Below are positions 5,285 through 21,639 of a DNA stretch of 64,000 bases, piece by piece. Where the stretch lies: the NCBI RefSeq assembly GCF_036924645.1, contig NZ_JAZHRX010000001.1, positions 6,785,501 through 6,849,500 on the forward strand. The letters run 5' to 3'. The stretch comes from Bradyrhizobium sp. AZCC 2176 (GTDB lineage Bacteria > Pseudomonadota > Alphaproteobacteria > Rhizobiales > Xanthobacteraceae). The first letter of the stretch is position 1, and every line of letters begins with the position of its first letter. The notes below the pieces were generated by a model. It was not told where the DNA came from. It was given only the letters and a program-made list of their open reading frames with translations, and made no database searches. Position numbers and translations under genes: made by a program.

Positions 5285-6151
5285 TTACGTAGTCGAAGAA
5301 TTCCTGAAGCTGAGCGGGCCCCCTTTGCGCCGACAATATCCGCAACCGAACTCGTTACCCGACGGCGAAATCATAATTGACTGCTTTCGACGCGGGCAGT
5401 CTGCCGTCCAAACACTGCTATTGTGGCCCGCCACCCTGGGATGGAGATCTAACTGTCTTGCCAGTTTCAATATAGGGGCCTCATGGCTTAGTTGCGCTGC
5501 TTCCGCAGCCAAGGTGTTGCCCTTTAGCTCCTCAGCAATAGCCCTAACGATGTCTGTTAGTTCGTCAGTCGAGAGAAGGCCGGGTATGTACGGCGGTCTC
5601 GGAAATTCATGGGGAAACCTAGCGCGCACGAGCGCGCACAGAAGTACCCTTCCCGCCTCGCGCTCAGTGAACTGGCGAGGAGCACCCGCAAGACAACAGC
5701 ACCTCCATTTTGAGTTTACCCAGTAAAAGTCGCCGCTCGCGCGCGCAGCTAAGCTTTCTCTGGTAAATTTCTCGGCATCGGTCGTGAGCGACCAGAGCAA
5801 ATCCCGCTTATCATGACGAAACAAAAAAAGCGCTTCGTTTAGTTCGGTGATGCCCAGGTCCCGCTCCCACACACCAAGGAATAGCGCGTTGGGTGGAATC
5901 CGGCCTTGATGGTTTGGCGCATGGCCCCACGGATCAACGAATGATTTCTCGCTGTCTCCGGCGGAAAGCTCCGGGATATTCGACAAAAAAACCTCCATCG
6001 GTTTGACCGAGGAGGGCTGACAATCGCGCGACCCGCTTCGTTGCCGAATGGCCGCATCCCCTTGCGGAGCCACCTTGCCCGGGAACGGCAGGTTGGCGAG
6101 GGCGTCAGCCCCTCTCTTGATGCTGGCTGTCAGTATAGCAGGTTCAAACAT
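5285..6151 (-). CDS. Hypothetical protein with C-terminal zinc-ribbon-like motif
   Basis: This 288-residue protein is not recognised as a family. The first 200 residues are mixed alpha/beta with no clear motif. The last 60 (about 230-288) read HPRVAGHNSSVWTADCPRRK then FGCGYCRRKGG, which resembles primase-type or CHC2-like zinc ribbons. The first knuckle, usually Cys plus His, keeps only Cys, so the metal site may be incomplete. It faces away from the hypothetical gene at 6816 and lies at the edge of the recombinase island, suggesting an element cargo or replication-associated role (inference). ATG 6151 is preceded by a weak AGAAG. Confidence 0.55.
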   Translation of the reverse strand: MFEPAILTASIKRGADALANLPFPGKVAPQGDAAIRQRSGSRDCQPSSVKPMEVFLSNIPELSAGDSEKSFVDPWGHAPNHQGRIPPNALFLGVWERDLGITELNEALFLFRHDKRDLLWSLTTDAEKFTRESLAARASGDFYWVNSKWRCCCLAGAPRQFTEREAGRVLLCALVRARFPHEFPRPPYIPGLLSTDELTDIVRAIAEELKGNTLAAEAAQLSHEAPILKLARQLDLHPRVAGHNSSVWTADCPRRKQSIMISPSGNEFGCGYCRRKGGPLSFRNSSTT

Positions 6152-19104: not shown

Positions 19105-19563
19105 TCACTGCATGAAGCCTTCGGCGAGGACCTTCCCGGTCACCAGGCTCGCGGTCCCCACACCCCAGATCTGTCGCTCATTGACCCAGGCATAGTCCTT
19201 CGACGCGGTGGAGAGGCGGACGTTTGCGAAGATGTCGAGCACCGGCTCGCCGGGTCGCGGCGCCGCCTGGCCGTCGCCAGACAACGCGATCCGGTGGCCG
19301 TCGTCGGTTTCGATGATCAGGTGCAGGTCGAGGTCCATGCGCCCATCCGCGCGCACCCGCACATAGTCGACGCCGTGCGCATGGCCCGCGAGGCGGCCCT
19401 TGTATCGCCCATCGACCGCAAGGTCGAACCGGGCTCCGTGTAGTGGAATCGCTTCCTGGCCGGCAAGGATGGCGTCCATGCTCACACCGTAGTCGGTGAC
19501 TCCAGTGATATCGAGTTCCATGTCGTAAATCTTCTCGCCCCTCATTGCAGTATTTTGAGGCAT
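19105..19563 (-). CDS. DUF3237-family protein
   Basis: 152 residues from ATG 19563. The sequence follows the DUF3237 pattern: an N-terminal strand with MELDITG, GARFDLAVDGRYKGRLAGHA, YVRVRADGRMDLDLHLIIET, then YAWVNERQIWGVGTASL near the end. The family forms small beta-barrel proteins of unknown biochemical role, often near oxidative degradation genes. The frame is open upstream but without coding character. It stands alone between repeat-bearing intergenic regions. Confidence 0.75.
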   Translation of the reverse strand: MPQNTAMRGEKIYDMELDITGVTDYGVSMDAILAGQEAIPLHGARFDLAVDGRYKGRLAGHAHGVDYVRVRADGRMDLDLHLIIETDDGHRIALSGDGQAAPRPGEPVLDIFANVRLSTASKDYAWVNERQIWGVGTASLVTGKVLAEGFMQ

Positions 19564-20233
19564 TGCATTTCTCTGAGTTATACCGTGCCTTTGGTTCCAG
19601 CGGATGGACAGTTCACTCAAGCGATGAGTGTCACCGCCGCCACCAGTCAGTCGAATGGGGAGCGGCAGTTTCGACACATTCTGCGGATTTTTTTGCGCCT
19701 AGCTGAGTTCGGCGAGCCGGCCCTCAAGGGGCGGATCAGTCACCGAGGCGCAGCCTCGCGGATGCGAGGGGGTCAAACAATAGTCCTCGATCTTGTATCG
19801 AGGATTGCCTGAACGCCGTGTGGCAGACGCTTCGTCATCGCGGCAGATTGACTTCGCGTCCGGTGGGAGCGCAAGCCCATCAGAAGTAGTGCCCCAGAGA
19901 AGGGCGGCGAATACTTGTATGTCCAGGCGCGGTTTCGGCCAAGCGATCATAGCGCCACGGCGAAGGAGTAGTGCCCATCTTCATCGGCCGTGGCGCGCCA
20001 CTTCGGTACAAAGCAACACCGCAGTACCCTATGCTCTCCGTTTCCGCGCCACCATCGCGCAATTGTAAAGCGCCCATGGCCCTGCCCAACAACGGGCTCA
20101 CGGCCTCATCATGATCGGGCTGCGAATCCCCTGCGGCATGCCGGCGACAATCGCGGGGCTGGAAGCGTGCGAGGCGCTCACCCAGTACGTACGCCAAGCG
20201 GCTGGTGTTGACGCCTGAGCGTTTTGCCGCCAT
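19564..20233. other. Intergenic with repeat copy 4, no gene
   Basis: Besides the palindromic repeat at 19945-20000 no gene can be supported. The right end is the promoter side of the thrS leader. Confidence 0.4.
19945..20000. repeat. Palindromic repeat, copy 4 of 7
   Basis: Best-preserved core: GCGCCACGGC and GCCGTGGCGC arms around GAAGGAGTAGTGCCCATCTT. The continuation GCGCCACTTCGGTACAAA (19995-20012) is identical to 8112-8129 inside the serine recombinase gene. Confidence 0.85.
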
Positions 20234-20320
20234 ATGCAGAGTATGAACAAGCTTCGATCAGCCGCATCGACCACCACGGCGACCGCTTACGGCGGATCGC
20301 CTGCTGGTTGTGCGCGCTAG
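20234..20320 (+). CDS. Threonine-rich leader peptide of thrS attenuator
   Basis: A 28-codon frame (ATG 20234, second ATG 20243, TAG 20318-20320) encodes MQSMNKLRSAAS followed by Thr-Thr-Thr-Ala-Thr at 20270-20284 and ends in GGSPAGCAR. Four threonine codons in five, all ACC or ACG, lie 108 bases before a threonyl-tRNA synthetase start and just before an intrinsic terminator. The Thr codons themselves form the first arm of a hairpin (see the attenuator entry). An in-frame stop directly upstream closes the frame. No strong Shine-Dalgarno is visible. As in trp, his or thr leaders, the peptide would have no function of its own; ribosome stalling at Thr codons would be the signal (inference). Confidence 0.7.
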   Translation: MQSMNKLRSAASTTTATAYGGSPAGCAR

Positions 20321-20383
20321 AGACAAGCGTACTTCACCCAGAAAAGGCCCCGCCGGCGACGGACGGGGCCTTTTCCGGTTTTT
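20270..20383 (+). promoter_or_regulatory. Transcription attenuator upstream of thrS
   Basis: Arm 1 (20270-20282, ACCACCACGGCGA, the Thr codons) pairs with arm 2 (20297-20308, TCGCCTGCTGGT). Arm 2 with its left flank (20291-20302, GGCGGATCGCCT) can instead pair with arm 3 (20345-20354, AGGCCCCGCC), the left side of the terminator. When the ribosome stalls on Thr codons, arm 1 is covered, 2:3 forms and transcription continues; otherwise 1:2 and the terminator 3:4 form. Pairings were found by eye; free energies were not computed. Confidence 0.7.
20342..20383 (+). terminator. Intrinsic terminator of the thrS leader
   Basis: AAAAGGCCCCG (20342-20352) is perfectly complementary to CGGGGCCTTTT (20364-20374) across an 11-base loop, with a second T run at 20379-20383. 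It lies between the leader stop and the thrS ATG, so it is an attenuator rather than an end-of-gene terminator. Confidence 0.85.
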
Positions 20384-20427
20384 GATGGTCCCCGTCCGCG
20401 CTTTTTCCCATCACAAGGAACACAGCC

Positions 20428-21639
20428 ATGGACGATCTCGACCACAGAAATCTCGGCGTGAAGCTCAAACTCTGGCACCTTCAGGAAGATGCGCCGGGCA
20501 TGGTGTTCTGGCATCCGCGCGGCAACGCGGTCTACCGGGTGCTGGAGGACTATGTCCGGCGCAAGATGCGCCGAGCCGGTTATGCCGAGGTCCGGACGCC
20601 ACAACTTCTGCCGCAGGAGCTCTGGGGCCGCAGCGGCCACTGGGACAAGTTCGGCGAGCACATGTTCCGGGTCGACGACGGCGAGTTGGCGATGGCGCTG
20701 AAACCGATGTCGTGCCCGTGCCACGTGCAGATCTTCAACAAGGGGCTGCGCTCGTGGCGAGAGCTTCCGATCCGCTATGCCGAGTTCGGCGCTTGCCACC
20801 GCAATGAGCCTTCCGGTTCGCTCCACGGCATCATGCGGACGCGTGCCTTCGAGCAGGATGACGCCCATGTGTTCTGCCGCGAGCAGGACGTGGAGGGCGA
20901 AGTCGCGTGCTTCATCGCCCTGCTGGGCGAGGTCTATCGCGACCTCGGTTTTCCCCACTACGAGGTGGCGCTGGCCACGCGGCCGGCGATGCGCGCCGGC
21001 GACGACGCGACCTGGGACTGGTCAGAGACAAAGCTCGGCGATGCCGCCAGGCAATGCGGCCTCGCGCCTCAAATCAATCCCGGCGAGGGCGCGTTCTACG
21101 GACCGAAGCTGGAATTCGCGCTGCGCGACCGGCTAGGACGATCCTGGCAGTGCGGCACGGTGCAGCTTGACGGCGTGCTGCCGCAGCGGCTCGAGGCGTC
21201 CTACGTCGCCCCCGACGGCAGCCGCGCGAGGCCCCTGATGATCCACCACGCCATCTTCGGATCGCTCAGTCGCATGATCGCGATCCTGCTCGAGCACCAT
21301 GGCGGTGTGCTTCCGTTCTGGCTGTCGCCGGACCAGGTCGCGGTCGCGCCGATCTCGAAAGACCAGGCCGGATACGGCGCGGACGTGCTGGCGGCGTTCG
21401 AGGATGCCGGGATCCGGGCCGTTGCCTATGACGGTGCCGATACTCTTTCGCGGCGCATCGTGGCGGCGCATGAAATGGCGGTGCCGGTGATGGCTATCGT
21501 CGGCGGGCGCGAGATGAGGGACGGCCGGGTGAGCCTGCGCGAGAGCGACGGCTCACAGGCCGACGTTCCGCTGGCCGAGGCGGTGTCCCGCCTGCAGGCG
21601 AGGGCCAGGCCCGGCGCCGTTGTGGCTCAACCCTTGTAA
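20428..21639 (+). CDS. thrS: Threonyl-tRNA synthetase lacking TGS and editing domains
   Basis: 403 residues, about 240 shorter than normal bacterial ThrRS. It begins exactly where the catalytic core begins (DHRNLGVKLKLWHLQEDAPG). Class II motifs are intact: motif 2 region FGACHRNEPSGSLHG, the zinc ligands Cys96 (MSCPCHV), His147 (QDDAHVF) and His272 (MIHHAIFG), motif 3 with FGSLSRM, and a C-terminal anticodon-binding domain from about residue 300. It should charge tRNA-Thr in the cytoplasm but cannot remove mischarged Ser in cis. AAGGAACACAGCC precedes the ATG, and the gene is led by a Thr-codon attenuator. It stands alone, so it is probably an extra copy beside a full-length thrS elsewhere, perhaps for starvation or inhibitor resistance (inference). 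Confidence 0.9.
   Translation: MDDLDHRNLGVKLKLWHLQEDAPGMVFWHPRGNAVYRVLEDYVRRKMRRAGYAEVRTPQLLPQELWGRSGHWDKFGEHMFRVDDGELAMALKPMSCPCHVQIFNKGLRSWRELPIRYAEFGACHRNEPSGSLHGIMRTRAFEQDDAHVFCREQDVEGEVACFIALLGEVYRDLGFPHYEVALATRPAMRAGDDATWDWSETKLGDAARQCGLAPQINPGEGAFYGPKLEFALRDRLGRSWQCGTVQLDGVLPQRLEASYVAPDGSRARPLMIHHAIFGSLSRMIAILLEHHGGVLPFWLSPDQVAVAPISKDQAGYGADVLAAFEDAGIRAVAYDGADTLSRRIVAAHEMAVPVMAIVGGREMRDGRVSLRESDGSQADVPLAEAVSRLQARARPGAVVAQPL

Follow-up and report, generated by a model that had tools for sequence, protein, structure and literature searches.

A putative threonine-codon leader-peptide attenuator upstream of an auxiliary, editing-less threonyl-tRNA synthetase gene in Bradyrhizobium and other bacteria

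Among the closest described systems, pheM-pheST of E. coli is governed by a peptide-leader attenuator, and thrS and thrZ of Gram-positive bacteria are controlled by T-boxes. E. coli thrS, for its part, has a translational operator of tRNA-like form, which is located at the ribosome-binding site and binds ThrRS. In Streptomyces coelicolor, an auxiliary tryptophanyl-tRNA synthetase (TrpRS; trpS1) is reportedly under ribosome-mediated attenuation, a finding ascribed to Vecchione and Sello in 2010, and its link with antibiotic resistance is said to be established. Also described are the uORFC-8-2 motif, a leader ORF before cysS of Rhodobacterales for which an attenuator was proposed from comparison (PMC8632094); the trpL/rnTrpL attenuator RNA of S. 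meliloti, which starts with the AUG of the leader ORF (PMC7298713, PMC10117765); SEP5, an S. meliloti sORF with clustered Thr (and Lys) codons before an aspartate dehydrogenase gene (PMC10117765); and E. coli ThrRS, which is named as autoregulating (PMC2965389). A peptide-leader attenuator of thrS appeared in none of the literature matches listed, as judged from titles and the starts of abstracts, and a relevant survey of 2010 could already include thrS.

The present study concerns one locus in the window, that is, the whole 64,000-nt stretch of Bradyrhizobium sp. AZCC 2176 DNA that was analyzed. Sequence and comparative evidence indicate, with a probability that we put at roughly 0.92, that an auxiliary gene, thrS2, is controlled by a ribosome-mediated transcription attenuator at positions 20208-20427, which responds to the level of charged tRNA-Thr. 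The predicted system resembles pheM-pheST in the peptide-leader attenuation of an aminoacyl-tRNA synthetase operon, but pheM-pheST concerns the housekeeping PheRS and Phe codons. It resembles the S. coelicolor TrpRS system as a second, inducible synthetase gene with a peptide-leader attenuator, but that system reportedly concerns tryptophan, Actinomycetota and antibiotic resistance, whereas no inhibitor is known for thrS2. B. subtilis thrZ is likewise a second ThrRS gene induced when charging of Thr-tRNA fails, but it uses T-box antitermination and encodes a full-length enzyme.

With uORFC-8-2, the locus shares an alphaproteobacterial synthetase gene, a leader ORF with cognate codons in a stem, and an intrinsic terminator; that motif has two tandem Cys codons and precedes cysS, whereas the thrS2 leader has Thr runs, an auxiliary editing-less target, a probably leaderless start, a defined antiterminator and a spread beyond one order. 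S. meliloti trpL is likewise an alphaproteobacterial attenuator; its RNA begins at the leader AUG, as is probable for thrS2, but it has Trp codons and biosynthesis genes, and SEP5 is a leader ORF with clustered Thr codons that differs by its combined Thr and Lys codons and by preceding a biosynthesis gene, not thrS. Attenuation of this kind is already known for synthetase genes (pheST, trpS1 and, as proposed from comparison, cysS), to which thrS2 adds a distinct ThrRS clade that apparently moves horizontally; its unusual features are a target that lacks proofreading, a start that is probably leaderless and an occurrence that crosses classes and phyla.

The thrS2 gene (20428..21639, plus strand) encodes a 403-aa protein identified as a threonyl-tRNA synthetase by TIGR00418 (439.3 bits against a cut-off of 383.65 in the profile search), Pfam and its tree grouping, and the sequence AAGGA at 20415-20419 on the same strand is its likely ribosome-binding site. 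In the three thrS2 proteins checked with Pfam, only the class II core (PF00587) and the anticodon-binding domain (PF03129) were detected and the TGS and editing (tRNA_SAD) domains were absent, unlike in the full-length protein of locus L224, which gives both TGS and tRNA_SAD. The protein aligns to solved ThrRS structures, e.g. 1qf6, and alignments with the housekeeping enzyme and with solved ThrRS chains showed that the class II motifs are kept, as are a Cys and two His that we take to be the zinc ligands. These data indicate that thrS2 is, by sequence, a threonyl-tRNA synthetase by family but not of the full-length bacterial ThrRS type. A Tyr-Gly-Pro-Lys motif, considered on account of where we presume the obafluorin and borrelidin determinants of ThrRS to lie, was invariant in the 13-sequence ThrRS alignment examined for inhibitor-resistance residues.

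Since a full-length thrS is also present at G000:C1:6982841 (47% identity to thrS2 over the core), thrS2 is the second thrS of the genome. In this assembly, the full-length gene shows an N-terminal frame change before the catalytic core (L002, 702-2861 and 1126-2754), and its relatives have open frames of about 680-840 aa. The frame change is either an assembly error or real; if real, thrS2 would be more important in this genome.

The original prediction placed a 28-codon leader from 20234. The comparison corrected this: the conserved leader ORF (20243..20320, plus strand; MNKLRSAASTTTATAYGGSPAGCAR) has 25 codons, from ATG 20243 to a TAG at 20318-20320, as defined by sequence and alignment. 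In the leader alignment, close relatives carry ATATAC where the window has ATG 20234. As this upstream ATG is unconserved and lies inside the -10 box, the leader is taken to begin at 20243. The predicted Thr-Thr-Thr-Ala-Thr run was indeed found at 20270-20284 (plus strand), encoded by the putative regulatory codons ACC ACC ACG (GCG) ACC, which also form the 5' part of hairpin 1:2.

A leader promoter was recognized by comparison and a motif scan, with the -35 box TTGACG at 20208-20213 and the -10 box CATATG (CATATA in close relatives) at 20231-20236, both on the plus strand, the latter ending 6 nt upstream of the leader ATG. A generic sigma-70 scan of 19500-21000 gave no promoter at the stricter threshold; the promoter came from comparison. 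TTGAC was present in 50 of 53 leaders, compared with 30 of 2120 random positions of the same loci, followed in those 50 by 15-19 nt and a -10 box ending 4-13 nt before the start codon, in a scan restricted to -10 boxes ending 2-14 nt upstream of that codon. A Shine-Dalgarno-like motif was seen in none of the 53 leaders in the scanned window, against 212 of 2120 control positions. Because the promoter lies just upstream and a Shine-Dalgarno-like motif is missing, transcription probably starts at or near the AUG, and the leader ORF is probably leaderless.

Conservation was assessed at 55 thrS2 loci from Alphaproteobacteria, Burkholderiaceae and three Myxococcota, drawn from the genus (23), family (3), class (12) and phylum (4) samples and from named genome records (13). 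The named-record loci came from the best 80 matches; 65 of these were open for >150 codons on the upstream side, which classed them as full-length, and were set aside from the reading of leaders. The fragmentary L026, and L098 and L099 as repeats of genomes already counted, were left out; 53 leaders were tabulated, while L017, with an altered terminator missed by the pattern, and L005, because of its Thr count, were read by eye. A leader ORF is present at all 55 readable loci, with at least three Thr codons in 54, up to nine of them consecutive; L005 has only two, after a six-base deletion. The order of leader ORF, GGCGG-like segment and CCCCGCC-type hairpin recurs at 55/55. The Thr run and the pairings, whose conservation in orthologues had been set as a refutation test, are kept down to about 55% protein identity, and they occur in another class and another phylum as well. 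Judged from sequence, the same switch thus stands before the same gene in different classes and phyla and is not confined to alphaproteobacteria.

The 53 tabulated leaders represent 44 different peptides and 52 different DNA sequences, and Thr accounts for 267 of their 1349 residues. The peptides diverge strongly among families while retaining the Thr run (MNAMRQNPSTTTTTTASGGRSCGRAR, MLHSRRNTTATTTTTIRFGGLGTGRLRA, MKHVGRTPLTTTTTRFGGPIGWLVR and MSGIHLISTTTTTTTSICGSPGGRAR), as does the Paraburkholderia leader (MDLYSFSFAAVTTTTTTTLMGGSSGGCAR); the three Myxococcota loci have MSCVSTTTATTSTTTASAGVVSVRVSMD and two leaders with a GTG start, and in L067 the Thr codons are scattered without a run. Thr codon usage varies (ACC 164, ACG 54, ACT 13 and ACA 1 in 48 leaders), and the run appears to be conserved as amino acids. 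The distance from the first Thr codon to the GGCGG-like segment (segment 2) is 18-36 nt in the same number of leaders and 21 nt in the window type.

These data also bear on the idea that the short ORF and hairpin belong to a separate gene, for a small RNA or a small protein, with a terminator of its own, and that thrS2 has another promoter. Termination in the leader would leave a leaderless mRNA of some 130-140 nt, like the trans-acting rnTrpL (PMC7298713, PMC10117765), but the unit stands upstream of thrS2 at all 55 loci read, no other nearby gene is widely shared, and the Thr run fits the downstream product, so that we regard an independent gene as very improbable. A trans role of the leader RNA could exist in addition to attenuation, which we continue to favour.

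The structural parts of an attenuator were recovered in the window by folding, and the 194-nt region was more stable than 200 of 200 dinucleotide shuffles (z -5.4). The prediction that the Thr codons are the first arm of a hairpin held: hairpin 1:2 (20270..20308, plus strand), supported by folding and the partner-swap test described below, pairs 20270-20287 with 20291-20308 and would hold segment 2 off the terminator arm. The proposed alternative pairing of segment 2 with the left terminator arm was likewise recovered as antiterminator 2:3 (20290..20355, plus strand; folding and partner-swap), in which 20290-20307 pairs with 20338-20355 around an inner hairpin at 20310-20332, with GGCGG at 20291-20295 facing CCGCC at 20350-20354 as its core. 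Sequence and folding also bore out the perfect 11-bp intrinsic terminator (terminator 3:4; 20342..20374, plus strand; AAAAGGCCCCGCCGG...CGGGGCCTTTT), which is conserved in the alignment; its stem pairs 20342-20352 with 20364-20374 (hairpin energy -25.6 kcal/mol), a T run follows further 3' at 20379-20383, and the thrS2 start at 20428 is 53 nt beyond the stem.

The same leader might instead act mainly on thrS2 translation or mRNA decay and not on transcription termination. This would suit the Myxococcota loci L093, L097 and L103, where no T run follows the last hairpin, which makes a plain intrinsic terminator doubtful there, but T-rich sequence stands after or at the end of the terminator in the window and 28 aligned proteobacterial or unclassified leaders, and the window hairpin lies 53 nt upstream of the gene and leaves the likely ribosome-binding site uncovered. 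We thus consider control at that level improbable and transcription attenuation the better reading. By analogy with the Gram-positive thrS and thrZ genes, which use T-boxes, one might expect on thrS2 a T-box or some other leader that binds tRNA or a ligand; the one Rfam match of the window at gathering thresholds is an unrelated SAM-I-IV riboswitch, and in ten related loci searched with E up to 1, three Rfam matches were obtained, all below the gathering score and none a T-box. Such a leader is hardly to be expected here, less so than any other alternative considered, and the leader-peptide attenuator is retained. The SAM-I-IV riboswitch lies at 6027-6128 on the minus strand of the window (68.2 bits).

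Masking 20243-20284 had been proposed as a test of whether the terminator is lost. In the complete RNA at equilibrium, masking halved it, with the mean pair probability falling from 0.91 to 0.51, but did not abolish it. In the window's nascent RNA ending before the right arm, which is in this folding model the state relevant to the attenuation mechanism, masking brought the pairing between GGCGG and the left arm up from 0.0 to 1.0. Across leaders, a stalled ribosome on short RNAs ending 12 nt past the terminator made no difference to the terminator at equilibrium in 12 of the 13 leaders, the window's included; because a finished terminator persists at equilibrium, the antiterminator has to precede it on the nascent RNA for the model to work. 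Stall-masked nascent folds contained the antiterminator in 13/13 leaders of one set and 24/25 of a second, L091 being the exception. Even without a ribosome, the antiterminator was favoured or partly formed in the nascent folds of L019, L063, L064 and L066 (4 of 13). Segment 2 was paired 5'-ward (4 or 5 of 5 positions) without a ribosome, as expected for hairpin 1:2, in 20 of 25 leaders and failed to do so in five. Single-leader z-scores over both hairpins were modest (mean -1.7, mononucleotide shuffles).

RNAalifold on the MAFFT leader alignment recovered the terminator and no other pairing. Since this consensus fold gave the terminator alone, covariation was tested by swapping arms between species, using 21 representative leaders whose arms outside the invariant core were exchanged in 20000 permutations. 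The antiterminator arms paired better with their own partners than with swapped ones (-21.0 vs -18.2 kcal/mol), 3/20000 permutations being as good, and so did the arms of hairpin 1:2 (-19.1 vs -17.7 kcal/mol; 315/20000), whereas a control pairing went in the opposite direction (19846/20000); as the representative leaders are related, these counts are not exact probabilities.

Segment 2 reads GGCGG in 49 of the 53 leaders, GGTGG in three (L024, L173 and L100) and GCGGG in one (L089). It lies in the leader frame, as Gly-Gly, in 46 and in another frame in seven (L024, L068, L069, L070, L089, L093 and L173), and it thus appears to be conserved as nucleotides even where the frame shifts. The left terminator arm is CCCCGCC in 51/53, CCTCGCC in L109 and CCCCACC in L100. 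In L100 the change is two-sided, GGTGG facing CCACC outside the CCCC/GGGG stem of the terminator; because both sides changed together, the antiterminator core pairing is kept. The classical peptide-leader attenuator originally proposed is therefore supported by the conserved Thr run, segment 2 and pairings at the thrS2 loci. The parts, their order and spacing, their conservation and their covariation all rest on sequence and its comparison among loci.

The start site, ribosome stalling, read-through and charging of tRNA-Thr by ThrRS2 are what we infer from these parts, as follows. The 5' end of the RNA would coincide with the leader AUG at 20243 or lie a few bases from it, and a ribosome would load there and translate the 25-codon leader. 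When Thr-tRNA is plentiful, the ribosome would pass the Thr codons, segment 2 (20291-20308) would be held in hairpin 1:2 or under the ribosome near the stop codon, the terminator at 20342-20374 would form, and transcription would end upstream of thrS2. When Thr-tRNA is scarce, through threonine starvation or because the housekeeping ThrRS is lost or inhibited, the ribosome would stall at the first Thr codons and leave GGCGG, which starts 21 nt downstream, free to pair with the left terminator arm, so that the polymerase would read through into thrS2. The editing-less ThrRS would then be made and tRNA-Thr recharged.

R1, a covariance model of the leader that consists mostly of sequence information with eight pairs, was searched against thrS and whole genomes. 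No match (E up to 0.01) was obtained at any of the 133 loci (99 + 34) that were classed as full-length thrS by an upstream open frame or by open-frame length; most of these had several hundred bases 5' of the gene, and a few were cut by contig ends. On whole genomes of the class, R1 gave a match in 49/289 (E up to 0.001). The seven best matches were thrS2 leaders, and below them came leader ORFs built alike, which carry Thr and Lys codons where the gene is asd and Lys codons where it is dapA; some weaker matches were a terminator alone or unrelated sequence.

The asd leaders with mixed Thr/Lys codons comprise L228 in the window genome (G000:C1:5775468-5775598; MTTSTKATAKTKAPSGGSGAVRA) and L205, L206, L208, L211, L215, L216, L218, L221 and L222; asd was named by a family model for L228 and by eye from the downstream protein for the others. 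SEP5 is perhaps of the same type. The dapA leaders with Lys codons are L229, also in the window genome (G000:C1:1308083-1308213; MITRSCAALSSKKGPHLGTRDRRAR; dapA named by a family model), and L226 (named by eye). L224 (genome G661), found in the genome scan, is the only full-length thrS (TGS and editing domains) noticed with such a leader, which is Thr-rich (MTYPTTATMTTTATRCGGP). L209, L210, L212 and L213 have leader-like ORFs, e.g. MFAQMHARKNAAMTRSGGPCGEFVR, with no target gene assigned. Because the codon content matches the product across thrS2, asd, dapA and the full-length thrS, the mechanism receives independent support, and R1 can be used to search alphaproteobacteria for other leader-peptide attenuators, having picked up the leaders of asd, dapA and one full-length thrS.

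In the genus sample, thrS2 was found whole or broken in 24 of 146 genomes; it also occurred in 7/248 genomes of the family sample (four of the seven in the genus), 13/385 of the class sample and 9/349 of the phylum sample. Scores in the phylum sample separated thrS2 (656 bits or more) from every other match (607 bits or less). A tree was built from the cores of 28 short and 22 full-length ThrRS; three Myxococcota and one full-length sequence were missing from it because the motif did not catch them. The short enzymes formed one group (support 100/99). Members of the window's genus were split between two positions: the L001 and L019 types stood together and L024 grouped with a sequence from a different family of the same order (100/100), and thrS2 of named Burkholderia and Paraburkholderia records grouped with Acidocella (100/98). 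When neighbouring ORFs of at least 100 aa were compared in 20 stretches of 11-17 kb, which represented 12 lineage groups, with frames overlapping thrS2 set aside, no conserved neighbour occurred in more than three groups; as no neighbour is widely common, no operon or biosynthetic cluster explains thrS2. The tree and the lack of common neighbours therefore point to a one-gene unit in which thrS2 and its attenuator would have moved horizontally together.

Five of the 24 genomes of the genus carry a thrS2 that is interrupted, split or shortened, and the gene is therefore dispensable; the broken loci are L021 (G108), L022 (G069), L023 (G019), L025 (G023) and L026 (G057). Around thrS2 in the window, a repeat family defined by a 19-mer seed has six of its seven genome copies (at most one mismatch) within 12 kb, at about 13232, 15398, 18771, 19981, 21918 and 24604.

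Why thrS2 is kept is clearly less certain than how it may be controlled, the candidate reasons being a backup under starvation or a bypass of ThrRS inhibitors. Tentatively, and with more doubt than belief, the attenuator and thrS2 may be seen as a self-contained, horizontally moving ThrRS-bypass cassette that answers a block of ThrRS, whether from starvation or from an inhibitor made by a soil competitor, with an inhibitor-insensitive replacement enzyme: blocking of the housekeeping ThrRS would lower Thr-tRNA, the leader ribosome would stall, and thrS2 would be switched on. If this is true, induction of thrS2 may also bring Thr-to-Ser mistranslation under stress, the editing domain being absent.

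The attenuator would extend peptide-leader attenuation, so far described for few synthetase genes, to threonine and thrS, and it appears that one attenuator stayed with one gene while the latter passed between families, between classes and seemingly also between phyla. Because the thrS2 clade is without proofreading, the switch predicts that an error-prone enzyme is accepted when Thr-tRNA fails, and ThrRS inhibitors are a candidate selective force on thrS2.
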